31,800 nt of DNA from a virus: positions 1 through 31,800 of the IMG/VR virus record IMGVR_UViG_3300050821_023932; one strand, given 5' to 3'. Shown here in pieces: positions 4,788 to 30,847 of the stretch. Under the pieces are notes generated by a model. The model was not told the DNA's origin. It saw nothing but the letters and a program-made list of their open reading frames with translations, and did no database searches. The position numbers and the translations under genes are program-made. The first letter of the stretch is position 1, and every line of letters starts with the position of its first letter.

Positions 4788-5792
4788 CTAAGTTACAACC
4801 ATTACAACTCCTGATGTTTGATATAAATCACCGGTTACTAATCCTCCTGCAACAGCAGCAGCATTACTTACATAATTTGTTAGAGACATATTTGCGGACC
4901 AGCCACCTTGTAATAATTTATTCTGCCAATCAAGAGTTGTCAAATTTGAATAATCATATAATAGTCTGGAAGCCCAGTTAGCAGATATAGTATTAGTATT
5001 TACATCTTTTAAATCTGAACTCTCCCAATCTATAGCTGCATATCCAGATGAATTTATTAATACTAAATTTATTCCCCATTCCGCTACAATTGACCCGGAT
5101 GGATTATATAAATATCGATTATACCAATCTATCGATTCTATTCCGCTTGCAGCATAACCTATGAATGCACCATAATCAAAAGATAGGTTTCCATAATAAT
5201 CATAAAGCTTTGCATTTTCCCAATCAACGGAAGTACCACCGTTGGTATAAATTAAATTTCTGGTAGATGGGTTTGGAGATCCCCAATCGATCGATAATAC
5301 TCCTGAATAATCGTATGAATATCTATTGTTCCAATCACTGGAATCTACTCCTGATGTATCAGTACAAATTCTAGTGATCCAATTGACAGCTACTATACTT
5401 GAATTATCAGTAAGTTGACCGCCTCCATAATTCACTGAAATATTTCCGTTCGACCAATATAATTCCCTTAAATTCCAATTACCCGAGATCAATGATGAAC
5501 TATCATAAAATGAACGGCCATCAGCTTCCATTGATAGAATATCTGACTTATCGTAAATATTTTGCAAGTAAATAAGATCGTTACCTCCCATGTTTAAGGA
5601 GGCCAGCATTTGATTCGAGCCATCAATCTTTAACCCATTTCCTCCTAATAAATCTGCATCATCATTTAAATTGAGTTCAGCTGCAACAAATCTTTCTAAA
5701 ATGGCACGAACATTAGCAGCCGTAGTACTTCTGTTTCCGGAAATAATAAGAGAGGTAATACCATTTAATAAATCTGCTCTTGATTCACTCAT
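4788..5792 (-). CDS. Fibre-like structural protein with Asp-Trp repeat units (334 aa)
   Basis: The N-terminal 50 residues form a helical head (MSESRADLLNGITSLI ... ANVRAILERFVAAE), typical of phage proteins that trimerise or attach to the particle. From about residue 100 to 300 there are at least ten degenerate units of roughly 17-22 residues, each with an aromatic/Tyr-Asp step, a Ser-Gly turn and a D/N-W (SIDWYNRYLYNPSG, TLDWQNKLL, SVDWENAKLYD). Such units are expected to build a beta-solenoid or fibre shaft. The C-terminus (GGLVTGDLYQTSGVVMVV) resembles short ends recalled from other phage appendage proteins. It lies far from the tail-fibre gene at 16390, so it may be a second appendage or head fibre. 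Confidence 0.8.
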   Translation of the reverse strand: MSESRADLLNGITSLIISGNRSTTAANVRAILERFVAAELNLNDDADLLGGNGLKIDGSNQMLASLNMGGNDLIYLQNIYDKSDILSMEADGRSFYDSSSLISGNWNLRELYWSNGNISVNYGGGQLTDNSSIVAVNWITRICTDTSGVDSSDWNNRYSYDYSGVLSIDWGSPNPSTRNLIYTNGGTSVDWENAKLYDYYGNLSFDYGAFIGYAASGIESIDWYNRYLYNPSGSIVAEWGINLVLINSSGYAAIDWESSDLKDVNTNTISANWASRLLYDYSNLTTLDWQNKLLQGGWSANMSLTNYVSNAAAVAGGLVTGDLYQTSGVVMVVT

Positions 5793-5793
5793 T

Positions 5794-6399
5794 TTAAGTT
5801 ACAGAATAATAATAACCATCATTTGTATTATTGACTTTAACCGTTGTATCAGACTCGGCTAATAAAATACCGGCAGTTATACAGGTTTTTTCTGTGGCAT
5901 GTACTTCTATGGTAAGCCTGCCCATTCTGGAATTCAAAGCATCGTTCTTACCTTCATCCCTAATTTTTATAGAATTACTTTTTACACGCCAAATAATCCC
6001 GGGAGGAAATAATAATATTTTATAAGCAGGGTGATCAATGATAGTGCGACAGATCCCTAATATTTTTTGGAGAAGGACCGCTGATAAATAATCTCCTCTA
6101 TTATCGTCTGTCTGTTTGGCATTCGTATAAACATCAATGTTGTATTGATAAACCCCCTTATTACTTCCATCGTAAACTTTCAAATCTCCGTATGCACCAT
6201 CAACATAAGACACATTTACCAATGGGAGATCCGTTTTATCTTCAGGGTTTATCGCTTCCACAAATACCTTCATTTGTTGAAGCGAAGGATCATAAGTGAG
6301 CACTCCCTGATTATCTATTTCAATGGCTAATATTGCCGCAATTTGTTCGCGAATTAATTCAAAATTTTGGGTCTGTATCGGATCTGTAATAAGTGCCAT
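5794..6399 (-). CDS. Putative tail terminator / tail completion protein (201 aa)
   Basis: Soluble alpha/beta protein between the small connector-like gene and the fibre-like gene, abutting both (1-bp overlap and 1-bp gap). The first 45 residues are helical (FELIREQIAAILAIEI). The middle has alternating strands with a Tyr-Gly-Asp loop and a pattern resembling tail-terminator proteins that analyse a virion ring (VYQYNIDVYTNAKQ ... RMGRLTIEVHATEK). The identification comes from position after the capsid module and general shape, and I could not confirm a family. A neck or minor tail protein is an alternative. Confidence 0.6.
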   Translation of the reverse strand: MALITDPIQTQNFELIREQIAAILAIEIDNQGVLTYDPSLQQMKVFVEAINPEDKTDLPLVNVSYVDGAYGDLKVYDGSNKGVYQYNIDVYTNAKQTDDNRGDYLSAVLLQKILGICRTIIDHPAYKILLFPPGIIWRVKSNSIKIRDEGKNDALNSRMGRLTIEVHATEKTCITAGILLAESDTTVKVNNTNDGYYYSVT

Positions 6400-6773
6400 T
6401 AGTCTAATACCTGAAGATAAATTACAATCAATCCAAGCGTTTCATCAGGGTGCCAGCTCTGCACCATATAAGAAATAGTATTACCGGTAATATCTGCCAC
6501 ATAAACTTTATGACCTTCTAACTTAACTTCGCCATACGCATCCCGATAAGGATAATTTGCATTTGCTAAATCAAGGTCTGATACGGTCACCGTAGCAGTA
6601 AGGGAGTTGACAATATTACCTTCCGTATCTACTCCAAGCCTTATTTTTTTATGAAGGCCTCCTATAGTAATATTGAATCCGTTGGGAGCAAGAAGGATAA
6701 TGGATTGCCCCCATCCATTAAGATTTGAAACAAGACTCTGAGCTAATTGTTTTGCCTTCTGAATTAATCCCAT
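6399..6773 (-). CDS. Putative head-tail connector / neck protein (124 aa)
   Basis: Mostly beta protein following a short N-terminal helix (LIQKAKQLAQSLVSNL), with motifs such as NITIGGLHKKIRLGVDTEGN and a C-terminal SWHPDETLGLIVIYLQVLD. It lies between the small head gene (6801-7004) and the tail-terminator-like gene, the place where lambda-like head modules carry the FI/FII or stopper genes. The start codon is only a few bases after the terminator-like hairpin at 6778-6802. Function is inferred from position. Confidence 0.6.
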   Translation of the reverse strand: MGLIQKAKQLAQSLVSNLNGWGQSIILLAPNGFNITIGGLHKKIRLGVDTEGNIVNSLTATVTVSDLDLANANYPYRDAYGEVKLEGHKVYVADITGNTISYMVQSWHPDETLGLIVIYLQVLD

Positions 6774-6777
6774 AATT

Positions 6778-6802
6778 AAAAAAGGGTTTTTAAACCCTTT
6801 TT
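6778..6802. terminator. Perfect hairpin with flanking A/T runs just after the capsid module
   Basis: The sequence AAAAAAGGGTTTTTAAACCC followed by a T run folds into a GGGTTT/AAACCC stem extended by A-T pairs, and it would work in both directions. Read leftward it ends in T residues and lies right after the stop of the 6801-7004 gene and 5 bp before the next start (6773). It probably attenuates the leftward transcript so that capsid genes are expressed more than the genes beyond. Confidence 0.7.
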
Positions 6803-7004
6803 ATTTTTTGTCTAAACTTTCTTTACTCTCTTTTTTGACATGATGCTCATTGTAATATTTCTCATCATATACTCGAATGAAATTTCTTTTCAAGAGTTCA
6901 CCCAGTGAATCATCTGGAAAATCTTTCTCATCATATACACCATGAGCTCTGAACATCTTCTTACCGACCCTGGCCGCATAAGCAGTTATTATATATTTTG
7001 CCAT
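6801..7004 (-). CDS. Small head-module protein of unknown function (67 aa)
   Basis: Hydrophilic 67-residue protein, starting with a strand (MAKYIITAYAARVG) and ending in a strongly charged tail (HHVKKESKESLDKK). Its start is adjacent to the stop of the major capsid gene. Similar short proteins follow capsid genes in many phages, sometimes aiding head completion, but I recognise no family. A terminator-like hairpin follows at its stop codon. Confidence 0.7.
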   Translation of the reverse strand: MAKYIITAYAARVGKKMFRAHGVYDEKDFPDDSLGELLKRNFIRVYDEKYYNEHHVKKESKESLDKK

Positions 7005-8087
7005 CTATTGAAGGGTTTGTATAGTATAAATCTGATCTATTGCTTTAGGGATTGCCACACCTGCTGACTTAATGTCAAACACATGTTTGCTCAAACGTGG
7101 ATCCACATAATCTCCGAAAAGGTATTTTCCTTTGAATGGCTGCACTCCCGGACCAATTAGTTGAGGAACTCCCGCAAACGCCATTGTAAACTGAGGATTC
7201 ATAGGAATCAAAATGGCTGTTTTTGGATTAATGTAAGGAGTCGATACATAACCGGTAATCACGTTTCCGGAATACTGTGGCAAGTCATAATATTGTGGAT
7301 AAGTCATAAGGATAACTCTCCATGAACCTACAGAGATAGCACCATGCAATGCATATCCTGTTGCTTGTCTAACAGGCTGAGAAAGCGTATCTAAAGCGTA
7401 GTTGTAAATCTTACCTCTATTCTGGATAGCGGTGTTATTAATCAACGCTTGGAGGGAAAGATCATCCATGATACAAATAAATGTATCATCCATTGCCTTA
7501 CCAACAGTTCTAAGGAACTGACAACCGGTAAGAAGTGATATAACTGGATCCGCTACATCCCATGTATTACCAGATGTAAGCGCAACCATCGATTGAGATT
7601 TACGCTTATAATCGATCAATACAGACTCTTCTTCTCCGATAATCTGGATAGAACCATATTGAAGAACATCTGCCCATTGCTTCTCATAAGCACGGTCTAT
7701 TTTGTCCTGAAGCATTGCCATTCTATCGGCAGCTTCATCTACAAAATCCGTAAACGCTCCTGAAGAAATATCAGAAGAATTTCCACCGAACATATAATCG
7801 TAGTGGGAAAGCTCCGTGATGTCGTAATATTCACGATAATAAGGAGGTTCCAATGTTTTATTGGAACTGGTAGCCATTCGGTTACGGTTACCTTCAGTTC
7901 CCCGCTCAACAGATATAGCAATAGCTTCGTATGAACGGCTTACTTCTATCGAAACATATTTCGATGAAGATTCTTTTTCTTTTCCGAGAGAACGCAAAAA
8001 TCCAGTTGGTTTCGGTCTGCTCTTGTATACATCAATTAACTCTCTTGTGTATAGCTCTCTCGCTTCTACTATAGGAATAGTTTGCAT
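7005..8087 (-). CDS. Major capsid protein, lambda gpE family
   Basis: Forms the icosahedral head shell. The 360-residue length is close to lambda E (341), and features recalled for the gpE family are visible. These are an N-terminal region with an early Gly-Phe-Leu segment (KPTGFLRSLG), a Arg-Asn-Arg-Met-Ala stretch with EPPYYREYYDIT (about 68-94), a helical spine (AADRMAMLQDKIDRAYEKQW) and a C-terminal beta-rich region ending in a short tail. It follows the decoration protein, as expected in a lambda-type head module, and precedes a transcription-attenuating hairpin. No cleavage site near the N-terminus could be assigned. Confidence 0.92.
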   Translation of the reverse strand: MQTIPIVEARELYTRELIDVYKSRPKPTGFLRSLGKEKESSSKYVSIEVSRSYEAIAISVERGTEGNRNRMATSSNKTLEPPYYREYYDITELSHYDYMFGGNSSDISSGAFTDFVDEAADRMAMLQDKIDRAYEKQWADVLQYGSIQIIGEEESVLIDYKRKSQSMVALTSGNTWDVADPVISLLTGCQFLRTVGKAMDDTFICIMDDLSLQALINNTAIQNRGKIYNYALDTLSQPVRQATGYALHGAISVGSWRVILMTYPQYYDLPQYSGNVITGYVSTPYINPKTAILIPMNPQFTMAFAGVPQLIGPGVQPFKGKYLFGDYVDPRLSKHVFDIKSAGVAIPKAIDQIYTIQTLQ

Positions 8088-9587: not shown

Positions 9588-9694
9588 TTTTTATGATGGG
9601 ACCAAATTAGGATCAGAAAAAAAAAATAATTTTATTTGGGTACTCGTTAGGTACTCGTTAGGTACTCGTTAGGTACTCGTTAGGTACTCGTTGA
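9588..9694. promoter_or_regulatory. Divergent regulatory region between protease gene and RHH gene
   Basis: Holds, from left to right, a leftward -7-like element (TAATTTGG on the minus strand, 9602-9609), a run of ten A at 9617-9626, a rightward near-consensus Bacteroidota -7 element (TTTATTTG, 9631-9638) and the five-copy 11-bp array (9639-9692). The stretch 9606-9695 is identical over 90 bp to 24322-24411. The array lies upstream of the leftward promoter at about -37 and beyond, and over the expected start of the rightward transcript. It could thus activate the late genes and repress the RHH gene. Confidence 0.65.
9639..9692. repeat. 11-bp direct repeat array, five units of GGTACTCGTTA
   Basis: Four perfect head-to-tail copies start at 9639, 9650, 9661 and 9672. 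A fifth at 9683 lacks only the final A. The 11-bp period is about one helical turn, so all units face the same side of the DNA, which suits cooperative binding of a phage regulator. Matching arrays lie at 12095-12138 and 24355-24408. There are no spacers of variable sequence, so it is not a CRISPR. Confidence 0.97.
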
Positions 9695-10108
9695 ATGATC
9701 TTTGATATTTTAAACGTGATGAAGGAAATGGAGAGAAAACAGAGATTCGATTTTTGGGATGAAAATAATGGGGAAATGAGAGTAAGAGTTCCAATTCAAA
9801 TGAAGGAAGATATTGATAATATAGCAGCCAATCTAAATGAAAAAAGATCGACAATTTTGAATCCATTTTTACAGGATTTTGTTAATAAAAATCCTATTAT
9901 AAATTATCACCTTTCTCATTTTGATGAAAATTCAAAAAATAATTTTACTACAATTAAAATAACTAATGTCAACATATTTATTAAAAGAGGGATCGCTGAA
10001 ATAGCAAAAAAAAATAATACCTATCCTACAATAATAATACGACATATTTTAAAAAAATTTATAGAAGATCAATTGGATAGCAAATCAAAAAAGCATCTAC
10101 CTTATTAA
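9695..10108 (+). CDS. Tandem ribbon-helix-helix DNA-binding protein (137 aa), candidate array regulator
   Basis: Two RHH-like units are visible. One has strand GEMRVRVP (about 26-33) followed by helices around 35-48 and 52-64. The second has strand FTTIKIT (84-90) followed by helices around 93-107 and 110-125. RHH proteins bind DNA through the strand and often recognise tandem repeats (for example the Omega repressor). The gene starts right beside the five-copy array, and its 3' end overlaps the convergent portal stop by 4 bp. Met9 (9719) or Met12 (9728) are likelier starts than 9695, which is 3 bp from the array. It is on the opposite strand to the late genes, as an accessory regulator would be. 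The RHH call is by pattern and moderately sure. Confidence 0.7.
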   Translation: MIFDILNVMKEMERKQRFDFWDENNGEMRVRVPIQMKEDIDNIAANLNEKRSTILNPFLQDFVNKNPIINYHLSHFDENSKNNFTTIKITNVNIFIKRGIAEIAKKNNTYPTIIIRHILKKFIEDQLDSKSKKHLPY

Positions 10109-12053: not shown

Positions 12054-12154
12054 TCAGGCAAATTGCATGAATTAGGAAAAAAAAGTAAAGTTTAGGTACT
12101 CGTTAGGTACTCGTTAGGTACTCGTTAGGTACTCGTAAAAGTATTTATGGATTA
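12054..12154. promoter_or_regulatory. Regulatory spacer upstream of the W-portal block
   Basis: A 101-bp gap carrying, read leftward, a four-unit 11-bp array, an eight-T tract and TCCTAAT upstream of the W-like gene. The T-tract plus TCCTAAT combination also occurs at 9.6 and 24.3 kb. The rightward near -7 element (TTTATTTG) found at the other two array loci is missing, and no rightward gene starts here. That fits the array acting on the leftward promoter. Confidence 0.6.
12095..12138. repeat. 11-bp direct repeat array, four units
   Basis: Perfect copies of GGTACTCGTTA start at 12095, 12106 and 12117. A fourth at 12128 ends in AA instead of TA. It is the third member of the array family (with 9639-9692 and 24355-24408) and lies on the upstream side of the leftward gene starting at 12053. 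The flanking sequence is not part of the 90-bp duplication, so the array itself is the conserved element. Confidence 0.97.
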
Positions 12155-15889: not shown

Positions 15890-16387
15890 ATGAAACGCTT
15901 AATTTTTGTCCTTTTTATTTCTATTCTATTTTTTTCATGTGAAAAAGACCGGGATCCTTCTATTCCTGTAGAAGTTTCTAATGAATATGAAACATTTTTA
16001 CAGGAAGCACATAAAAGAGGAATTTATCTTGAAAATAAATTCTTAAAAAGAATCCATTTACAAGGACCAATATCTTCACATCAATGTAAAGGTGAAGATG
16101 GAAATGCAGTGGCAGGCTATTATGATGAACGAAAAAGAATAATTTTTATAGATACCACGCATCAGGAATATCAATTACAAAAACAAGTTCTTATTTTTCA
16201 TGAACTGGGGCACGCTTTTCTTAGAAGGGGCCACAGAAATGAAACATTTGTCGATCATTTAACACCTGTTTCTATAATGAACTGTTGTATTCCGGCCAAT
16301 ATTAATCAAACAACTTATCAATATTATATTGACGAATTTTTTAACGAAACTACACCCTACCCTTCATGGGTTTCCGGATGGAAATGA
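15890..16387 (+). CDS. Exported lipoprotein with HExxH metalloprotease motif (165 aa), rightward moron
   Basis: The signal peptide ends in a lipobox LFFS-C with Cys17. The following EKDRD is charged like the export signals that send Bacteroidota lipoproteins to the cell surface. A zinc-binding motif HELGH (His104, Glu105, His108) is followed by His115 (in RRGHRNE) and by SIMN with Met130, which could be a Met-turn. That combination resembles metzincin-like peptidases in this phylum, though with a longer third-ligand spacing than the classic motif. It sits alone on the plus strand between two structural blocks, ending 2 bp from the tail-fibre stop. A role in altering the lysogen's surface or excluding other phages is inferred only. 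Confidence 0.85.
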   Translation: MKRLIFVLFISILFFSCEKDRDPSIPVEVSNEYETFLQEAHKRGIYLENKFLKRIHLQGPISSHQCKGEDGNAVAGYYDERKRIIFIDTTHQEYQLQKQVLIFHELGHAFLRRGHRNETFVDHLTPVSIMNCCIPANINQTTYQYYIDEFFNETTPYPSWVSGWK

Positions 16388-22687: not shown

Positions 22688-22703
22688 CTCATTATCGTTT
22701 TAG

Positions 22704-22775
<72 letters not shown>

Positions 22776-22783
22776 ATATATTT

Positions 22784-24298
22784 TTAGTTTAATGTTCCAA
22801 AATTAAATCCAGCTTGTGCCGTGGTAGCCGCTATACGAGCTACTCCACTTCTTTTATAAGGGAAGAATGTTTCCAATCGGTCAGGATTAGTAGTACTAAT
22901 ATTTACTACTATACCTGCTTTCATAAATGCAGCATCTACAAGCAATCCTCTGGAAACTAAATCATCTGCCAAATCAGCAACTGCCGACTTCCAAGTTTTA
23001 GGTTTAATCACTTTTGATGATTTTACAACATCATCATCATTTGCAATCACTGACCCTATTACATATAGCTGCTCTTTGAGGTAATAAGAATACCTCACAT
23101 TAAAATCAAGCATTAAATTTCTTGCATATCTGTATTGAGGAGGATTTTCACCTACAGGATTATAAGTAGTCACGAAATCCTGAATTACATATACTCCGTT
23201 AATTACATTAGCAGTTGAACTTCCGTTTTGTACAATGCTGTTTCTGTTTGTTGCATCCTGCATACTTCCAGCAGATATTGGAGTAGGCATATCAGGGTAG
23301 GATAGCCCTCCAATATCAAGCTCTGGGGTATTCTGGGAAAGGTTGGCAAATAAAACTGTAGCATTGGCTGATGCTTCCATTGGAAGACCTAAGCTATTAG
23401 GAGCAGGTGCAATAGCAATTGTAACCTGGTTGTTTCTTCCACTGGTTAAATAAGAAGGATCATCATCTGTATTACCAGTAATGGCAATGAAAGGCTGCAT
23501 AATGATTCCTACATATCTTCCGGTTGGATTAACAGGATCAGGAATACCATTGTAATTTTCCAAGGCTGCCATCACAGTGGTATTGGTATCGTATGGATTT
23601 ACAACTATAGTATTCCATACATTTCCAAAATTCAATTGTGATGTAATATCAGGAGTTCCGGAAGCAGTAGAAGTAGCAGTAATTTCATAAGAAATTCCAA
23701 GGCTGTTACCTTGTGTATCTATGCTCACGCTTAATTTATCGGCTGTTGCACCACTCCATTTACTTTGAAGTGTTGCAACATACTCAGTATCCGTACAAAT
23801 CATAGGACATCCCAATACTCCATTTACTGTATCATAAATTTTAGATACAATGTCAGATGCAGTATCTCCCTGAGCTATATTTATGGCATAAAATTGTCCG
23901 TCTAATCCTTCTCTACCGGCAATGTTTATATAGTGTGTACCGCTTGCAGTAGCCACACCAGAAGGAGAAATAGTAAATGTTTTTGGAGTTGCACCAACCG
24001 CTTTCGCCTGTGGATAAACAGTTACAGGAATTCCTGAAACTCCTCCTCCATTATTAGGAAAAAGTATTCTGGCCATAATATGTAATGGAGATCCAAAACC
24101 ATATTTAAGCCCTATTGCTTGTGCAGAAGTAAAAGAAGTAGGAGTAAGATCTAAACCCGATTGATTATCGTCATTTGCTTCTCCAAATACTGCAATGGAT
24201 TGAGGCAGGTTCGGAGAGGTTGCCTGAAAACTTCCCTTTGTTAGTAAATAACCAACGATACGGGATACCCATTGTAAAGGAACTGCAGTCGATGCCAT
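22784..24298 (-). CDS. Tail sheath protein (Mu gpL-like)
   Basis: Forms the contractile outer tail. The 504-residue length matches Mu L (495). Early residues read as strands and turns, an LPQSIAVFGEANDDNQSG segment (about 31-48) precedes loops, and the C-terminal PDRLETFFPYKRSGVARIAA (about 473-492) is the conserved terminal strand region that locks neighbouring sheath subunits. The FLASH-type Thr/Ala/Gly-rich middle is typical. It is the first gene of its block, 57 bp downstream of the 11-bp array. Confidence 0.92.
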   Translation of the reverse strand: MASTAVPLQWVSRIVGYLLTKGSFQATSPNLPQSIAVFGEANDDNQSGLDLTPTSFTSAQAIGLKYGFGSPLHIMARILFPNNGGGVSGIPVTVYPQAKAVGATPKTFTISPSGVATASGTHYINIAGREGLDGQFYAINIAQGDTASDIVSKIYDTVNGVLGCPMICTDTEYVATLQSKWSGATADKLSVSIDTQGNSLGISYEITATSTASGTPDITSQLNFGNVWNTIVVNPYDTNTTVMAALENYNGIPDPVNPTGRYVGIIMQPFIAITGNTDDDPSYLTSGRNNQVTIAIAPAPNSLGLPMEASANATVLFANLSQNTPELDIGGLSYPDMPTPISAGSMQDATNRNSIVQNGSSTANVINGVYVIQDFVTTYNPVGENPPQYRYARNLMLDFNVRYSYYLKEQLYVIGSVIANDDDVVKSSKVIKPKTWKSAVADLADDLVSRGLLVDAAFMKAGIVVNISTTNPDRLETFFPYKRSGVARIAATTAQAGFNFGTLN

Positions 24299-24428
24299 AC
24301 TTTTTGATTTATGACACCAATATTAGGATCAGAAAAAAAAAATAATTTTATTTGGGTACTCGTTAGGTACTCGTTAGGTACTCGTTAGGTACTCGTTAGG
24401 TACTCGTTGAAATGTTGTAGAGAAACTT
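24299..24428. promoter_or_regulatory. Divergent regulatory region between sheath gene and glycosyltransferase cassette
   Basis: A second copy of the 90-bp segment (24322-24411, identical to 9606-9695). Contents mirror the 9.6-kb locus: leftward TAATATTG (minus strand, 24318-24325, one mismatch from the -7 consensus), ten-A run (24333-24342), rightward TTTATTTG (24347-24354), then the five-copy array. It should control both the tail block and the rightward cassette. Confidence 0.65.
24355..24408. repeat. 11-bp direct repeat array, five units of GGTACTCGTTA
   Basis: Same composition as the array at 9639-9692: perfect units start at 24355, 24366, 24377 and 24388, with a fifth at 24399 lacking the last A. 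It ends 20 bp before the ATG of the first cassette gene. Being identical in number and sequence to the 9.6-kb array, it is either recently duplicated or homogenised. Confidence 0.97.
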
Positions 24429-25109
24429 GTGATGGAAATATACCAGATATATTTCAGGAAGGAGCAGTTGGAAAAGTTGGATTACAAACCTTATTTAAAT
24501 GAGGATTGCACGCCCTTTTTTGAAAATTCAGTAATTAGAAATTTAATTGAATTAGGTGCTCATAGAGGACATGATTATTTTGGCGTTGTAAGTCATAAAC
24601 TAAGGGAAAAAATTACTATTACTAAACATGGATGGGCGAAAATAAAAAATATTGCGAACGTATCGGACCTTCCTTTCTCTCCTCAATTATTTCAAACTAT
24701 TTTATTGCAGAAACGTCCGGATACAATGAGTTTCCAACGTCATATTCCTCATGATCCAATCAGTTTTGCAGATAAATTTCACCCTAATTTCAGTAAATAT
24801 TTTGCTGAAATTATGCACAAAACAGGCTATAAATGGACACCTATAAGCTTTGAAAATGTATTTTATTGCAATTTTTTTGTAGCAAAAAATGAAATTTATG
24901 AGCGTTATGTAACTGAAATGCTGGCTCCCGCAATGGATATAATGTTGGAAATGCCAGAACTTTTTCAAAATAGTAATTACCCTCATGCACTTCCGGAAGA
25001 ATTAAAAATAAAATTTAATATACAGTATTATCCTTATCATCCTTTCCTATGCGAAAGAATGTATTCTTATTTTGTTCATATACATAAACTAAAAGTTTGG
25101 CATTTCTGA
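24429..25109 (+). CDS. Putative glycosyltransferase-like protein (226 aa)
   Basis: First gene of the rightward cassette. The start IYQIYFRKEQLEKLDYKPYL and FENSVIRNLIE segment, then DYFGVVSHKLREKI (around 49-62) and FYCNFFVAKNEIYERYVTEM (around 145-165), resemble phage and capsule proteins annotated as glycosyltransferase-like. No classical DxD motif was found. There are no membrane segments, so it should be cytosolic. The next gene starts 1 bp after its stop. Glycosyltransferase assignment is by weak resemblance and context. Confidence 0.55.
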   Translation: MMEIYQIYFRKEQLEKLDYKPYLNEDCTPFFENSVIRNLIELGAHRGHDYFGVVSHKLREKITITKHGWAKIKNIANVSDLPFSPQLFQTILLQKRPDTMSFQRHIPHDPISFADKFHPNFSKYFAEIMHKTGYKWTPISFENVFYCNFFVAKNEIYERYVTEMLAPAMDIMLEMPELFQNSNYPHALPEELKIKFNIQYYPYHPFLCERMYSYFVHIHKLKVWHF

Positions 25110-25110
25110 T

Positions 25111-25719
25111 ATGATAACACTTATAACAAGTTGCGACCGTCATGATCTTCTAATAACTACATTAGAATCGTTGGTAAAAAACCAAAAGCATAGATTAGCA
25201 ATTGCTATTAATGAAGATTCATCGAGAGTATTAGTAGTACCAGCCATTCGTGATACTATGATTAATACTTATAGACTGGATGGTAAAGGCCAGAACCATT
25301 CTATAGAGACTTTTCTAAGAGCTGCTATAAAAATGAAAGGTAGATTTTATTTGCATTGCGAAGATGATTGGGAATTTGATAATAATTATGATTGGATTAC
25401 CGAATCTTTAAAAATAATGCAGAGTGATCCTAAAATTATTAAAGTTCTTTGCCGATCTGATAGCGTTCATCCTTGTGAATTTAAAAATGGGTATGGTATT
25501 TTAGAACCATGGACCGATCCTTGGAAAGGTCATGTATGGCATGGATTCGGATGGAATCCTGGTATTACAAGGATAGATTTACTTGCAAAATTCCTCCCTT
25601 TAAAGTGTGACGAACAAACTTTATCAAAAAAAATATATGATGCAGGATATAAGACTGCATTACTTGAAAAAGGTGTATGTAAACATATAGGAGAAGGAAG
25701 GAGCACCCATGAACAATAA
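25111..25719 (+). CDS. Glycosyltransferase-like protein, GT-A type (202 aa)
   Basis: Short GT-A like fold. The N-terminus MITLITSCDRHDLLITTLES matches the nucleotide-binding strand and helix of family 2 transferases, and LHCEDDWEFDNNY (about 81-93) supplies an E-D-D metal/sugar-nucleotide motif at the expected distance. A C-terminal HIGEGRSTHEQ may give the late His ligand common in these enzymes. It overlaps the following gene by 11 bp, so translation is likely coupled. The acceptor and donor sugars cannot be told from sequence. Confidence 0.8.
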   Translation: MITLITSCDRHDLLITTLESLVKNQKHRLAIAINEDSSRVLVVPAIRDTMINTYRLDGKGQNHSIETFLRAAIKMKGRFYLHCEDDWEFDNNYDWITESLKIMQSDPKIIKVLCRSDSVHPCEFKNGYGILEPWTDPWKGHVWHGFGWNPGITRIDLLAKFLPLKCDEQTLSKKIYDAGYKTALLEKGVCKHIGEGRSTHEQ

Positions 25720-26407
25720 AAAAAGAATGGTTCTTTATTTTATAAATTGGAATGACTGTTTTTATTTTCCATTCCTCAAAGAACATTATGAAAAATTCTG
25801 TGAAAAAATTATCATGTATGATAATTACAGTAGTGACAATTCTTTTATTACTGCTAAAAATTTAGGATTTGAAGTCAGATTTTTTGGTCAAAGAGGTCAA
25901 TTGAATGATCAATATTATTTGGATGTAAAAAATCACTGTTGGAAAGAATGCAGAGGAAAAGGAATTGATTATGTGATCGTCTGTGATGCAGATGAATTCA
26001 TTATTCCAGAAGAATTAAAAGGCACTTCTCCAATAGTAACGGGTTATAATATGATTTCTGAGTATTTACCACATAAATCTATTTTAGAAATCAATACAGG
26101 TAGTTATTCACAAGAATATTCTAAACAAGCAATATTTTCACCGGATGCCATTGATGAAATTAACTATGTACATGGTGCTCATCGTAATTATATGAAGGGA
26201 AATATTACCACCGATGGACATTGTAAACTATTACATTATAGACAGATTGGAGGCGTTGAAAGAATAATAAGAAGACATTTTGAATATCGAAACAGACTTT
26301 CATCCTTTAATAAGCAACATAAGATGGGATTTCATTACAATCATTCTGATGATGCTAAAAGAGTTGAATGGAATGATCTAAAATCAAAAGCAATACAAGT
26401 TTTTTAA
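25709..26407 (+). CDS. Glycosyltransferase family 2/92-like protein (232 aa)
   Basis: MVLYFINWNDCFYFPFLKEHY followed (quoted to 19 residues or fewer) by YDNYSSDNSFITAKNLGFEV-type sequence gives the strand, Asp and Ser-Asp-Asn turn recalled for Glyco_tranf_2_4 proteins. The metal-binding CDADEFIIP is at 92-100 (D93, D95, E96). A LLHYRQIGGVERIIRRHFEY segment near 185-205 resembles acceptor-side helices. Likely a retaining or inverting sugar transferase in the cytosol. A 30-bp gap separates it from the next gene. Confidence 0.8.
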   Translation: MNNKKRMVLYFINWNDCFYFPFLKEHYEKFCEKIIMYDNYSSDNSFITAKNLGFEVRFFGQRGQLNDQYYLDVKNHCWKECRGKGIDYVIVCDADEFIIPEELKGTSPIVTGYNMISEYLPHKSILEINTGSYSQEYSKQAIFSPDAIDEINYVHGAHRNYMKGNITTDGHCKLLHYRQIGGVERIIRRHFEYRNRLSSFNKQHKMGFHYNHSDDAKRVEWNDLKSKAIQVF

Positions 26408-26437
26408 ACAATAAATTAACCATAAAATAAAAATCGT

Positions 26438-26764
26438 ATGATAAAAAAGCTGTTGACTGAAATTTCTCTAATGTGGGATGATTTCAAAATTTATTTACAA
26501 AAAGCCTTCTCAGAATTAGAAGAAGTAGAAAATTTAGTAACCGAAGACGGTGAAAAAATCTATTATGGCGTTCAATCTTATATAGTATTTGTGAAAAACA
26601 AATCTGCCAGTATCATTGAGCAGGAAAAAAGACAACTTTTTACACCTGTTAAGATGTTTTTCACAAAAGAAAAAGCAGCATTATTGCAATTAGAAAAGGA
26701 AACATTGAAAATTTTTGCAAGTAAACGTGCTGCATTGGAATTTATAATTAAAAATAAAATTTAA
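26438..26764 (+). CDS. Small helical protein of unknown function in the cassette (108 aa)
   Basis: Mostly helical and charged (EISLMWDDFKIYLQKAFSEL, then TKEKAALLQLEKETLKIFAS). It has no signal peptide, membrane segment or catalytic motif that I can see. It lies 30 bp after one glycosyltransferase-like gene and 1 bp before the next, so it belongs to the operon. It might be the acceptor, an adaptor or a partner of the transferases. No family recognised. Confidence 0.7.
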   Translation: MIKKLLTEISLMWDDFKIYLQKAFSELEEVENLVTEDGEKIYYGVQSYIVFVKNKSASIIEQEKRQLFTPVKMFFTKEKAALLQLEKETLKIFASKRAALEFIIKNKI

Positions 26765-26765
26765 A

Positions 26766-27473
26766 ATGGTCATTAATCAGTTTCACGCTCATGGAGATAT
26801 TCTATTTTGTGAGCCTATTTTTCGCCATTTCTGGGAAAGAAATGGCGAAAAACCTATTGTACCAGTGCGGGATCACCTTATTTTTTTCCAGGATTATATA
26901 GATTCGGCAAAATTTATTCCTATGAGTAAATTTTCACTTGATTATGAATCCATGGAAACTGAAAATCCAGATTATTTGCCGCTGAGATTTGCTAATCAAA
27001 TTACAAGAGGTCTTTCTAAGAACGACCATTCTGATTATTCAAATACAATGCCTGATAAATATAAATTGGCTGGCATTCCTTTAGAGAACTGGAAAAAATT
27101 ATCGTGGTGTCATTACCCTGAGAAATGTATGAAGCTTTTTGCTGCATTAGATCTTAGCAGCGAAGAAGATTACATTTTTGTCAATGAAAATTCCCAAGCG
27201 GGTAAAATAGAAATCAATCCGGAGAATCCAAACAATTATAGAATTATAAAAATGGAAGTAATTCCGGAATTTAATTTATTGGATTGGACTCCTATAATGC
27301 TATTAGCAAAAGAACATCATCATATTTCTACTTCAACGTTTTATATGTTGGAAGGATTGAAAGATATTCACAATAAAAAAATTCCTATTTATATATACCC
27401 AAGACCTAATGAAGACGGTCTGCAAGGAATTTCAAAATTAAATCCATCGTTTCATTATACAGCTGTCGAATGA
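26766..27473 (+). CDS. GT-B / heptosyltransferase-like protein (235 aa)
   Basis: The N-terminus HAHGDILFCEPIFRHFWERN has the glycine-aspartate loop and proline-arginine helix of GT9 heptosyltransferase-type folds. Further on lie VNENSQAGKIEINPEN and LAKEHHHISTSTFYMLEGL, placed like the second Rossmann-like domain's nucleotide-sugar loop. It is shorter than typical GT9 proteins (about 350), so it may be a minimal or diverged form. It overlaps the next gene by 4 bp. Confidence 0.65.
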   Translation: MVINQFHAHGDILFCEPIFRHFWERNGEKPIVPVRDHLIFFQDYIDSAKFIPMSKFSLDYESMETENPDYLPLRFANQITRGLSKNDHSDYSNTMPDKYKLAGIPLENWKKLSWCHYPEKCMKLFAALDLSSEEDYIFVNENSQAGKIEINPENPNNYRIIKMEVIPEFNLLDWTPIMLLAKEHHHISTSTFYMLEGLKDIHNKKIPIYIYPRPNEDGLQGISKLNPSFHYTAVE

Positions 27474-28120
27474 AGGTAGGAATAATCATACCAACCCGTG
27501 GAGATCGTCAAATTTTCCTTTCAAATTGTATTAGGTTAATAGAAAATCAAACCTTACAACCATGGATAATTGAAATAATTGATGAAGCTCCTAAATCTGA
27601 TAAATGCGATATTACTTATCGGTACCGGTTAGGTTATGATAGATTGAGAAATAAAAATCTTGATGTGATCGCATTTATAGAGGATGATGATTGGTATGCC
27701 AACAATTATCTGGAAACAATGTGCGGTCATTTTGAAAAAAAACAACGGCCTAAGTTATTAGGGTTATCACATACTATTTATTACAATTTGAGAGTTCTTA
27801 AATGGTATAAAATGGTGCATTCACAGCGTTCCAGTGCGATGAATACATTAATCAGACCCGATATGAATTTCAAATGGAGCATTGATGAAGATCCTTATAC
27901 CGATGCTTATCTTTGGCATCACCTGAAAGGAGAAATTATAGTTCCTGAAAAAGAAATATGCCTTGGAATAAAACACGGCATTGGTAAATGTGGAGGTAAA
28001 TTACATACTACCCACATGGATTTATATAAAAATAATGATCCGGAAAAAAAATTTCTGAAAGAAATAGTCGATAATGAAAGTTTTGAGTTTTATAATTATG
28101 CTGCTGATTTTATAATCTGA
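27470..28120 (+). CDS. Glycosyltransferase family 2-like protein (216 aa)
   Basis: Starts MKVGIIIPTRGDRQIFLSNC, the typical GT2 first strand and loop, and holds FIEDDDWYANNYLETM (around 69-84) with a DxD-like E-D-D-D motif. DEDPYTDAYLWHHLKGE at about 140-157 suits the acceptor/catalytic region, followed by GIKHGIGKCGGKLH. It overlaps the convergent terminase gene by 25 bp at the 3' end and has no visible terminator. Strongest glycosyltransferase of the cassette. Confidence 0.85.
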   Translation: MKVGIIIPTRGDRQIFLSNCIRLIENQTLQPWIIEIIDEAPKSDKCDITYRYRLGYDRLRNKNLDVIAFIEDDDWYANNYLETMCGHFEKKQRPKLLGLSHTIYYNLRVLKWYKMVHSQRSSAMNTLIRPDMNFKWSIDEDPYTDAYLWHHLKGEIIVPEKEICLGIKHGIGKCGGKLHTTHMDLYKNNDPEKKFLKEIVDNESFEFYNYAADFII

Positions 28121-30084
28121 ACTAAATCAAACCAGGTATAAGTTTTTAATTTCAATTCCTTACATACCATCATTACTGTAATGTCCCTTAGTGCCATATT
28201 ATAAACACGCACATCCCAAAAGTGATTTTGATGGGAAGCTGATTTCTTGCGCCAGCTCCATTGAACAACTTCCCCATCAACATTATCAGTTACACGGTGC
28301 TCACCTTCATAATGAGAAAAGAACGTTTTGAATTGATATTTATCACCTGAAGGTAAAGGAAAATTCATAAACCCGTATGGTTGTTTTGAATCAGCATGAG
28401 GATTAAATTTCAATTTCATTAGAGAGGAAAGTTCATCCTTCACTTGATTTACCTGAACCAAATAAAGATTGGCTCTTTCTTTACCCAATTTAAAGTTTGG
28501 TACATCAATACCAAACTTGATATATTTATTTTCCTTATCACCCTTCAACGAAATCATTCTATAATTAGAAGTATCTACATACGAATAAGCAAGATCTGTA
28601 TAGTGACCCGTATCTACACCAGTTATAAAAATGGCCATTCCTCTTCCGGTATCTGTGTGATAAACTTTTTCTACGACTTTATTAAATTCTGGCCATACTG
28701 AACGGTCTTTGTAATGCTGATAGGTCCATTTTTCCCGATCAGATTTATTTTCTCCTTCGAGTGGAATAAAAGTACCTATACTTCCATGTTCAATTGAATA
28801 ACTAGCACCGGATTCAGACCATGCAACAACTTCATAATCTAACCTTGCATCATCTTCTTTTCCATTCAAATCGCATGCGCATGTAAGCAATATTATTTTA
28901 CCATTTCCATCCTGAATAGAAAGATTTTCCGGAATGGTACCAATATCATAATTACGGATATTATTTTGAAGTTCTGTTGCTTTAGGACTCTCTGATTCTT
29001 TTTTATATGGAATTCCTAAATTAAGATTTATGAATGTTTGATATTTTGATTCCTTGCGGGATTGACCGGGAGGACAACATTCTAAGTAACTATAAACATA
29101 AGATTTCCAATCCGTCATTCCTGCAGGCGAATAAAGAGCATTCATGTGGTAAGAAGTAAAATCAGGTCGAAATGGTTCTTTAGTAGGCTTCCAATAACCA
29201 TCAGGAATGATTTTATATTTAATTGAATCAGTAAAAAAACCCGAACAACGTTGACAAATATATCCTACTGAATTTTCTATAAGTCTACCATGGTTATCAA
29301 GTTGCCATGTCATACCAGCTGTTTCTTTTCCAACAGCAACTTCCCACTCTAAAACAATATAATCTCCGCAACAAGGACATGGTACCATAAATTTACGCTG
29401 ATCTCCCATATTATACACTTCTAGAATGTTAGAACTATCTGCAAGTTCAGGGGAAGAAGTATAAAGTATTTTATATGTTTTAGCGTTTACGGTAAATCGT
29501 TTCTGAATCAAATCACGGGTATTACCTGCTATTTTTGACTTACCTTTTACCCGTTCATAGTCATCAATAAACCCAAATTTATAGGAAGCTTGTTGCCATA
29601 TTTTTTCATTGGAAGCGGGGGACAACTTTAGATAACCTCCCGGGAATTGTTTAATCTCATCGGTATCTCCACTTTTTGTTTTTCGGGCACGGTTTGCGGA
29701 AGGTTTTATTAGTTTACGAAGCCCAGTAGTATCGAGCATATTATCAATGTTGTCCATAGCTTCCTTCATTAAGGAATCATGTCCTACAGTCATAATAATA
29801 TTCCCTGGATTATTTTCAATAATCCATCCAATAGCTGGTAAAATGATAGTAGAAGTTTTACCGTATTGCGCTGCACCCATGACGGCTATATCTCTAACCG
29901 GATCGTCAGGGGAAAGTCTATCAATAATTTCCTTATTAAAGGGAGTAGTTAAATCATACCGCAACGGTCCGGCTATAGGTCTGGGCATAATAATATTTCT
30001 CTCTGCCCAAATCGAAGGGGAAATAGTTGATATTTTATATGCGGCACATTCTATTATTTCTTCAAGAATTCTCTTATTAATCAT
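28096..30084 (-). CDS. Terminase large subunit, lambda gpA family
   Basis: ATPase/nuclease motor that packages DNA. Walker A motif GAAQYGKT is at 70-77. Walker-B-like FIDDYERV at 172-179 has adjacent aspartates where a Glu is common. A Cys4 zinc-like site follows (CPCCG, then CQRC). The C-terminal nuclease part contains ITGVDTGHYTDLAYSYV (Asp residues), as in gpA. The 662-residue length is near lambda A (641). It overlaps the small subunit by 8 bp and is separated from the portal by 16 kb. Confidence 0.94.
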   Translation of the reverse strand: MINKRILEEIIECAAYKISTISPSIWAERNIIMPRPIAGPLRYDLTTPFNKEIIDRLSPDDPVRDIAVMGAAQYGKTSTIILPAIGWIIENNPGNIIMTVGHDSLMKEAMDNIDNMLDTTGLRKLIKPSANRARKTKSGDTDEIKQFPGGYLKLSPASNEKIWQQASYKFGFIDDYERVKGKSKIAGNTRDLIQKRFTVNAKTYKILYTSSPELADSSNILEVYNMGDQRKFMVPCPCCGDYIVLEWEVAVGKETAGMTWQLDNHGRLIENSVGYICQRCSGFFTDSIKYKIIPDGYWKPTKEPFRPDFTSYHMNALYSPAGMTDWKSYVYSYLECCPPGQSRKESKYQTFINLNLGIPYKKESESPKATELQNNIRNYDIGTIPENLSIQDGNGKIILLTCACDLNGKEDDARLDYEVVAWSESGASYSIEHGSIGTFIPLEGENKSDREKWTYQHYKDRSVWPEFNKVVEKVYHTDTGRGMAIFITGVDTGHYTDLAYSYVDTSNYRMISLKGDKENKYIKFGIDVPNFKLGKERANLYLVQVNQVKDELSSLMKLKFNPHADSKQPYGFMNFPLPSGDKYQFKTFFSHYEGEHRVTDNVDGEVVQWSWRKKSASHQNHFWDVRVYNMALRDITVMMVCKELKLKTYTWFDLVQIIKSAA

Positions 30085-30673
30085 GCTCTCCTACTTCTCT
30101 CTTCACAGATAATTCTTTAATTATAGTATCTAACGCTTTTTTTGATTCGATTTGTGATTTGGTAACGGCTTCATTTATACCGGCAGAAAGTTCACCACGC
30201 ATTTCTGCCAAAGTACTATCGGAAAGGTTATGAATTTTTGCAATTCGAGTAAGCCAGTTTTCGGCAGCACTATGAAAATTCACTACCATATTTTTTCCAT
30301 ACATACTGAAAATAGATTTTACTGCATCTGTGGGGACAGATTCGCCATCCATTTTCATATTTTTCTTTTTTAATAAATCTATCTCCTCCTGAATTTTTTC
30401 TATATCAAGAGCTTTTTTTTGATTTTCTAAAGATTGATATTCAGATATAGATTTATTTTTGGGCTTTTTATTTTCAACAGGCTCCTTAGTATCATCAGCA
30501 GTATCTACTTTTTTCCTGCCAGACCATTTTTCTAAAAAAAATGCATTAATGGGATTCATATCATCTACCATCCCATCTTCAACTATAACCTTCCCGTTTC
30601 TTATATAGGGAGGTAGAAAGGTGCGATCCTTTCCGCACATTCTAGCAAACTCAATTTGCTTATATTTAGCCAT
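30077..30673 (-). CDS. Terminase small subunit (Nu1-like) candidate
   Basis: A 198-residue protein immediately upstream of the large subunit (8-bp overlap). N-terminal helix-turn-helix-like part (YKQIEFARMCGKDRTFLPPY) precedes a charged linker and a coiled-coil helix (KKALDIEKIQEEIDLLKKKN) that would multimerise. The late helices (around 120-190) could contact the large subunit. Expected to bind the packaging start site. Similar small subunits are diverse, so family assignment is by arrangement. Confidence 0.8.
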   Translation of the reverse strand: MAKYKQIEFARMCGKDRTFLPPYIRNGKVIVEDGMVDDMNPINAFFLEKWSGRKKVDTADDTKEPVENKKPKNKSISEYQSLENQKKALDIEKIQEEIDLLKKKNMKMDGESVPTDAVKSIFSMYGKNMVVNFHSAAENWLTRIAKIHNLSDSTLAEMRGELSAGINEAVTKSQIESKKALDTIIKELSVKREVGEHD

Positions 30674-30847
30674 TTATAGATTTTATACATTTTACTAACG
30701 ATCTAATTTATACATTTTTATACATATTGGAATAACGATGTATAAAAAATGTATAAAAAATTGAAATGGGTACACAGAGTAATTTTTTCGCAGTTTTGCA
30801 AACATTGCGGAACATTAAAATATTTCTAGGAGTACCTTGAAGTTCAA
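30674..30847. promoter_or_regulatory. Intergenic region with TATACAT inverted repeats upstream of the terminase genes
   Basis: The arms TATACATTTTTATACAT (30709-30725) and ATGTATAAAAAATGTATA (30738-30755) are near-exact reverse complements, differing by one A/T residue, around a 12-bp spacer. Another TATACAT copy is nearby at 30684-30690. They look like operator sites for a dimeric repressor or activator controlling the terminase/late promoter. They could instead form a hairpin in the message. No clear TAnnTTTG promoter was found. Confidence 0.6.

Follow-up and report, generated by a model that had tools for sequence, protein, structure and literature searches.

Glycosylated virions are documented in few phage systems, and the means by which phage glycosyltransferases (GTs) find their acceptors is an open question. 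Among the described cases are the mycobacteriophages Che8 and Rita, whose capsid and tail-tube proteins are reported to bear glycans (Freeman 2023, cited in PMC11256854 and PMC12619734). Here we analyse a six-gene, GT-rich cassette (g1–g6) in the IMG/VR virus record IMGVR_UViG_3300050821_023932, a stretch of 31.8 kb (hereafter, the window) that is probably a fragment and in which the cassette lies between the genes for the tail sheath and the large terminase (TerL) of a phage of a Bacteroidota bacterium. Like the mycobacteriophage system, this locus involves phage-encoded soluble GTs; unlike it, it belongs to a different host phylum, comprises different GT sets, is known from its genes, and is exchanged as an island at fixed sites (TerL–sheath or orf12053–orf12691), with some GTs carrying a domain of the head locus. 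O-antigen conversion by the gtrABC genes of temperate phages likewise relies on phage GTs that act on glycans, but the cassette has no GtrA/GtrB-type membrane proteins or such families, and sits among virion genes. The isolated relatives of the structural module are the Ficleduovirus phages of Flavobacterium columnare (for example, FCOV-F8, MT585277; sheath 48% identical), which have the nearest sheaths among cultured phages and differ in that their head module precedes the sheath and no island was found at the sheath.

On balance, we favour the reading that the cassette represents one form of an exchangeable island that glycosylates the virion, probably its head, with the enzymes docked by a shared domain where this is present. 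A broader proposal, about which our doubts slightly outweigh our confidence, is that Bacteroidota myophages coat the head or neck with fast-changing glycans, that GT islands swap at two operon boundaries and that fusion to a domain of approximately 45 amino acids, shared with a small head-locus protein, docks unrelated GTs on the assembling particle. Virion glycosylation by phage GTs is already known; the literature searched (most subscription journals were outside its coverage) yielded no account of the present island, its two sites or the shared domain.

An exchangeable island at two operon boundaries

The TerL–sheath junction is an insertion site in Bacteroidota myophages. In a survey of the 80 best matches of a sheath profile together with eight loci from bacterial assemblies, the junctions that could be sorted comprised 24 islands (2.8–9.2 kb), 20 empty junctions (38–414 bp) and five with other cargo, and a further 19 contigs had island genes and no TerL on the contig. 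A separate set of 21 distinct contigs, in which both edges could be seen, had intervals of 0.8–9.2 kb from sheath to TerL. Most of the named host assemblies are Bacteroidota. In a maximum-likelihood tree of sheath proteins, occupancy changes at least five times on well-supported branches (nine times by parsimony), a pattern that points to repeated gain and loss, and the window clusters with L110, which is empty, and with L102 and L106, which are occupied. Two long records that are empty at this junction carry g6 elsewhere, in an island between orf12053 and orf12691 (L193 and L194), and the island of L009 lies at the same second site; those of L193 and L009 hold g6, g1, g2, g3 and g5 (that is, the cassette type of the window). 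A further two long records with an empty junction, of 43.9 and 42.8 kb, showed no g6. Separately, locus L167 has other content at the TerL–sheath junction, and in L185 the junction holds a section of the head module that runs from the capsid gene to the head-closure genes, an arrangement also found in Ficleduovirus.

The cassette of six genes is genuine and subject to selection. Because five of its proteins (g1, g2, g3, g5 and g6) keep their order in independent contigs at 49–66% identity, the cassette is better than a chance arrangement. In L002, for instance, g1-g2-g3-(methyltransferase)-g5-g6 occupies the same place with identities in this range, compared with 57% for the sheath and 56% for TerL, such that the five cassette proteins are about as conserved as these two structural proteins. 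Searches of viral contigs recovered 15 loci with g1 relatives and at least 150 stretches with g6 relatives, and the g1-g2-g3-g5 block is also found on contigs in which no structural genes resembling those of the window could be recognised (L005, L007/L008 and L022). The most widespread of these genes is g6, which occurs in most islands and also in the majority of long records, among them two whose island lies at the second site. Neither g1 nor g6 matched any of 50,697 phage records, a pattern scan of bacterial genomes found no g1, and a profile search of 395 Bacteroidota genomes found no g6 at 1e-10 (without a positive control).

The islands of 20 contigs contain 109 other open reading frames (ORFs), and those that could be recognised mostly encode glycan enzymes: 17 of the GT2 family, 12 hexapeptide acyltransferases, six Asn synthase/GATase proteins and two PIG-L deacetylases, besides FkbM and other methyltransferases, one TylF and one sulfotransferase. 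Whereas structural genes mostly co-vary with each other, the majority of the common island genes show no co-variation with sheath or TerL. The correlation for g6 is weak (Spearman 0.26 with sheath, p 0.011; 0.08 with TerL), and for this reason we rejected co-evolution of g6 with structural genes as a sign of an acceptor-specific role; that of g1 with sheath is stronger (0.56, 8 loci).

A domain common to the head locus and island glycosyltransferases

Several island proteins begin with a domain of approximately 45 amino acids that an iterated hidden Markov model (HMM) detected in 24 of 2,507 distinct ORFs. Seven of the 24 lie exactly between the genes for the major capsid protein and the head-closure protein Hc1 (both identified by way of the window genes, which match PHROGs), the other 17 encode proteins of islands, many of them adjoining g6, and none lies elsewhere; the HMM had no match on reversed sequences. 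The domain is fused to several different catalytic types, including g1-type proteins (L193 and L009, the loci that share the cassette type of the window), g6-type proteins (L032, L030 and L053) and a GT2 family of 300 amino acids (L027, L028, L036, L038, L042, L115, L175 and L114), with further domain-bearing proteins in L034, L055 and L194. A narrower profile run against 2.9 million viral contigs returned 12 loci, nine in the capsid–Hc1 region and three in island proteins, a scan that is partly independent in that some of its contigs already belonged to the set. In the isolated phage FCOV-F8, the gene between capsid and Hc1 encodes the domain as a stand-alone protein (54 amino acids; QNJ51376.1). 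The window has a divergent member at the corresponding place, recognised by the domain HMM at E 2.4e-4 (nine-sequence set) and by BLAST against the L193 homologue (24% identity, pairwise E 3e-7). Comparison of the domain with PDB and Pfam profiles gave nothing convincing. It is because island GTs of relatives carry a domain that otherwise occurs only in the small protein between capsid and Hc1 that we favour glycosylation of the virion.

Cassette genes and their flanks

Table 1 Features of the window that bear on the cassette
Feature	Position	Strand	Description
Head-closure protein Hc1	6399..6773	-	PHROG_4598, E 2e-24
Small head-locus protein	6801..7004	-	Between major capsid and Hc1 genes; divergent domain member
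Major capsid protein	7005..8087	-	PHROG_29, E 3e-26; possible acceptor or docking partner
Array 2	12092..12136	-	At the second island site of relatives (orf12053/orf12691); no island in the window
Tail sheath	22784..24298	-	PHROG_165 tail sheath, E 2e-80; left edge of insertion site
11-bp array, five copies	24355..24408	-	Part of the promoter region of the sheath gene; unlikely to serve the cassette
g1	24432..25109	+	Predicted GT-A fold glycosyltransferase; nearest solved fold, WbbM N-terminal GT domain
g2	25111..25719	+	Conserved cassette protein; acidic/W motif HxEDDW (E/D-D-W) from alignment
g3	25709..26407	+	Predicted GT2-type (Glyco_tranf_2_4) glycosyltransferase
g4	26438..26764	+	108-amino-acid protein of unknown function
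g5	26766..27473	+	Short predicted GT-B protein; GT9/heptosyltransferase-like fold
g6	27470..28120	+	Predicted GT2-family glycosyltransferase; most widespread island gene
Large terminase TerL	28096..30084	-	PHROG_15, E 5e-129; right edge of insertion site

An initial annotation, made from the sequence of the window, had described six rightward genes between sheath and terminase; the six plus-strand ORFs are present where it placed them (Table 1), with PHROG matches identifying both flanks, and g6 overlaps the end of the convergent TerL gene by 25 bp. When the window proteins were compared with Pfam, PHROGs and NCBIfam, g3 was recognised clearly, g6 weakly and no other cassette gene, and we regard GT status as supported for four of the six, for g3 and g6 by GT2 profiles and for g1 and g5 by predicted fold. 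The g3 protein scores 31.8 bits against PF13704 (Glyco_tranf_2_4; cut-off, 27.5), and its family profile matches the protein GT GmaR at E 2e-5. Although window g6 alone falls under the cut-off of PF00535 (15.4 versus 23.3 bits), 34 of 40 members of its family match this profile at E ≤ 0.1 (best, 4e-10), and a PDB profile search matched the solved GT2 structure 3bcv at 2e-5. The initial annotation had assigned a GT-A fold to g2, g3 and g6, which these profiles bear out for the latter two; for g2 the call has the motif in its favour and is plausible, no Pfam family having been matched, the best relevant PDB profile match standing at E 0.15 and hhalign being negative with a small alignment.

Its suggestion of a weakly transferase-like protein at the start of the cassette gains from the structure model of g1 (start probably ATG 24432 rather than GTG 24429), which is confident (predicted local distance difference test (pLDDT) score, 90) and resembles the GT domain of the O-antigen GT WbbM (6u4b; VIA Z 14.1, root-mean-square deviation (rmsd) 3.6, 191 aligned, 15% identity), well ahead of the second-best matches, GT6 enzymes at Z 8.6. 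Relatives of g1 are 35–65% identical. The likeness to WbbM is one of fold, with no sequence-family match: against PF14393, which we take to cover the WbbM domain (DUF4422/WbbM-type GT), none of 11 records matched at E ≤ 1. The heptosyltransferase-like call for g5 is borne out by a model (pLDDT 83.5) that matches TibC (Foldseek E 7.6e-4; VIA Z 10.7), WaaF (E 3e-3; Z 11.9, rmsd 4.4, 210 aligned), WaaC and other GT9 folds, so that for neither protein did the proposed fold search reject the transferase call. As with g1, this is similarity of fold and not of sequence family (0 of 7 records matched PF01075 (GT9) at E ≤ 1), and g5 is approximately 100 residues shorter than WaaF. The small g4 has, as had been noted, no evident identity, and no relatives were found for it except in L004, another assembly of the same virus; near its position, L002, L007, L014 and L022 encode a methyltransferase of approximately 165 amino acids (assigned by Pfam for L002). 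No membrane segment was flagged in any of the six proteins and no flippase-type membrane protein was seen, in agreement with the earlier view that classical O-antigen conversion is unlikely.

One part of the initial annotation, control of the cassette by a late-type array, had to be abandoned. Perfect arrays of an 11-bp unit (TAACGAGTACC on the minus strand, four or five copies) occur at 9639–9692 and at the two positions listed in Table 1, in each case preceding the start of a structural gene, and the one beside the cassette faces the sheath gene. A promoter-like stretch of approximately 40 bp lies beside all three arrays on the structural-gene side, with nothing in common on the cassette side, and we therefore rejected the array as a cassette control element. 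The same rejection rests on the lack of an array upstream of the sheath in any relative and on the other exact matches in viral contigs, which are coincidences in coding sequence. The arrays, seen only in the window virus and its other assembly L190, look like a phage-specific late activator site. An Arc-like/ribbon-helix-helix protein (9695–10108, plus strand; PHROG_582, E 7e-5), divergent from the first array, is a candidate array binder.

Elsewhere in the window, a tRNA-Met (CAT) gene (22703–22775, minus strand) sits between the tail tube and sheath genes, and several short AT-rich repeats (TTTATACAT-like; 30673–30761) lie upstream of the small terminase gene. A lone plus-strand gene among the tail genes (15890–16387) encodes a metalloprotease-like protein with a lipoprotein-like signal and an HExxH motif, and is a further cargo gene at an operon boundary. 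A repetitive protein with recurring ‘LYDxSGxxSIDW’-like units and no PHROG match (4788–5792, minus strand) is probably a fibre or tail-tip protein.

Proposed function of the island

Assuming that the island does act on the virion, soluble GTs made in the infected cell would use host nucleotide sugars to assemble a short glycan, and the acceptor would lie in the cytoplasm and most likely be a protein of the phage head or neck; as the cassette is without a membrane protein, the acceptor must be accessible from the cytoplasm. The near-constant GT g6 may add an early sugar, a role that only this near-constant presence suggests, and g1, g3 and g5 (perhaps also g2) may then extend the glycan, which in relatives could be decorated by methyl-, acyl- and sulfotransferases and deacetylases. 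In some relatives, the N-terminal head-locus domain may dock the GT on the head while this is assembling. The benefit would perhaps be shielding of the particle or altered binding. The sequences establish the GT folds or families, insertion at fixed sites, recurrent gain and loss, exchanged content and the common domain, whereas acceptor, docking, timing, reaction order, glycan structure and benefit are inferences.

The location of the island among virion genes, on the strand of those genes in some relatives, is consistent with such a role, and virion glycosylation, which the initial annotation had considered plausible, is still the best reading, now by way of the head-locus domain in relatives and no longer by late control. 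Several considerations weigh against it. The acceptor is conjectural, and no virion protein has a length that tracks island presence (the best of 11 tests, at p=0.02, did not survive correction). The docking domain is absent from the GTs of the window itself, where the head-locus member has diverged strongly; as the profile searches gave no convincing counterpart of the domain, docking is a guess. In the window, moreover, the cassette and the late genes run in opposite directions.

The main rival is modification of host surface glycans, in which the cytosolic enzymes would act on undecaprenol-linked capsule or O-antigen-like precursors and thereby block competing phages (that is, superinfection exclusion). 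Acyl- and methyltransferases, PIG-L and Asn-synthase-like enzymes and WbbM- and WaaF-like folds are typical of surface-polysaccharide loci, an integrase is encoded in the window and two other records, and the host envelope has been proposed as the target of a GT from another Bacteroidetes phage group (PMC8008677). We nevertheless consider this explanation unlikely: the window cassette showed neither a flippase nor a polymerase nor a membrane GT, 20 of the 23 records with islands or island genes (many of them fragments) have no integrase, and the presence of a head-locus domain on GTs would be left unexplained. Less probable again is that the locus carries cargo with mixed or different functions (such as the glycosylation of host proteins or small molecules), its position reflecting tolerated operon boundaries and the shared domain being a generic phage domain. 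The other cargo at five junctions, the other single plus-strand genes at junctions in the window (9695 and 15890) and the free recombination of island genes relative to structural genes would all fit such a locus, but not the persistence of g6 in most long records, second-site islands included, the dominance of glycan enzymes in the recognisable content or the restriction of the domain to head locus and islands.

The initial annotation also raised modified DNA bases, and hypermodification of DNA is a known activity of phage GTs (Pyle 2024, as cited in PMC12619734). Glycosylation of modified bases of phage DNA in evasion of restriction seems to us the most improbable of these explanations and is not generally supported across the relatives: among the 23 records, which are partly incomplete, thymidylate-synthase-like genes occur in none and a TET/JBP enzyme in one (the test covering these two hydroxylation routes). 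That one, a dioxygenase gene at 42029–42391 (minus strand) in G006, the record of the island-bearing L026, makes DNA modification possible there and counts against a virion acceptor in that relative. Hexapeptide acyltransferases, PIG-L and Asn synthase would be unexpected for DNA, and the position of the islands among virion genes and the domain common to GTs and head locus also argue against this explanation.

If glycosylation of the virion is indeed the function of the island, the glycans of the particle would be a trait that Bacteroidota phages exchange rapidly, with bearing on environmental decay, binding and recognition. The head-locus domain on GTs offers a concrete, testable answer to the question of how such enzymes find their acceptor, and the locus provides a natural set of island-bearing and island-lacking relatives with many combinations of GTs and tailoring enzymes.

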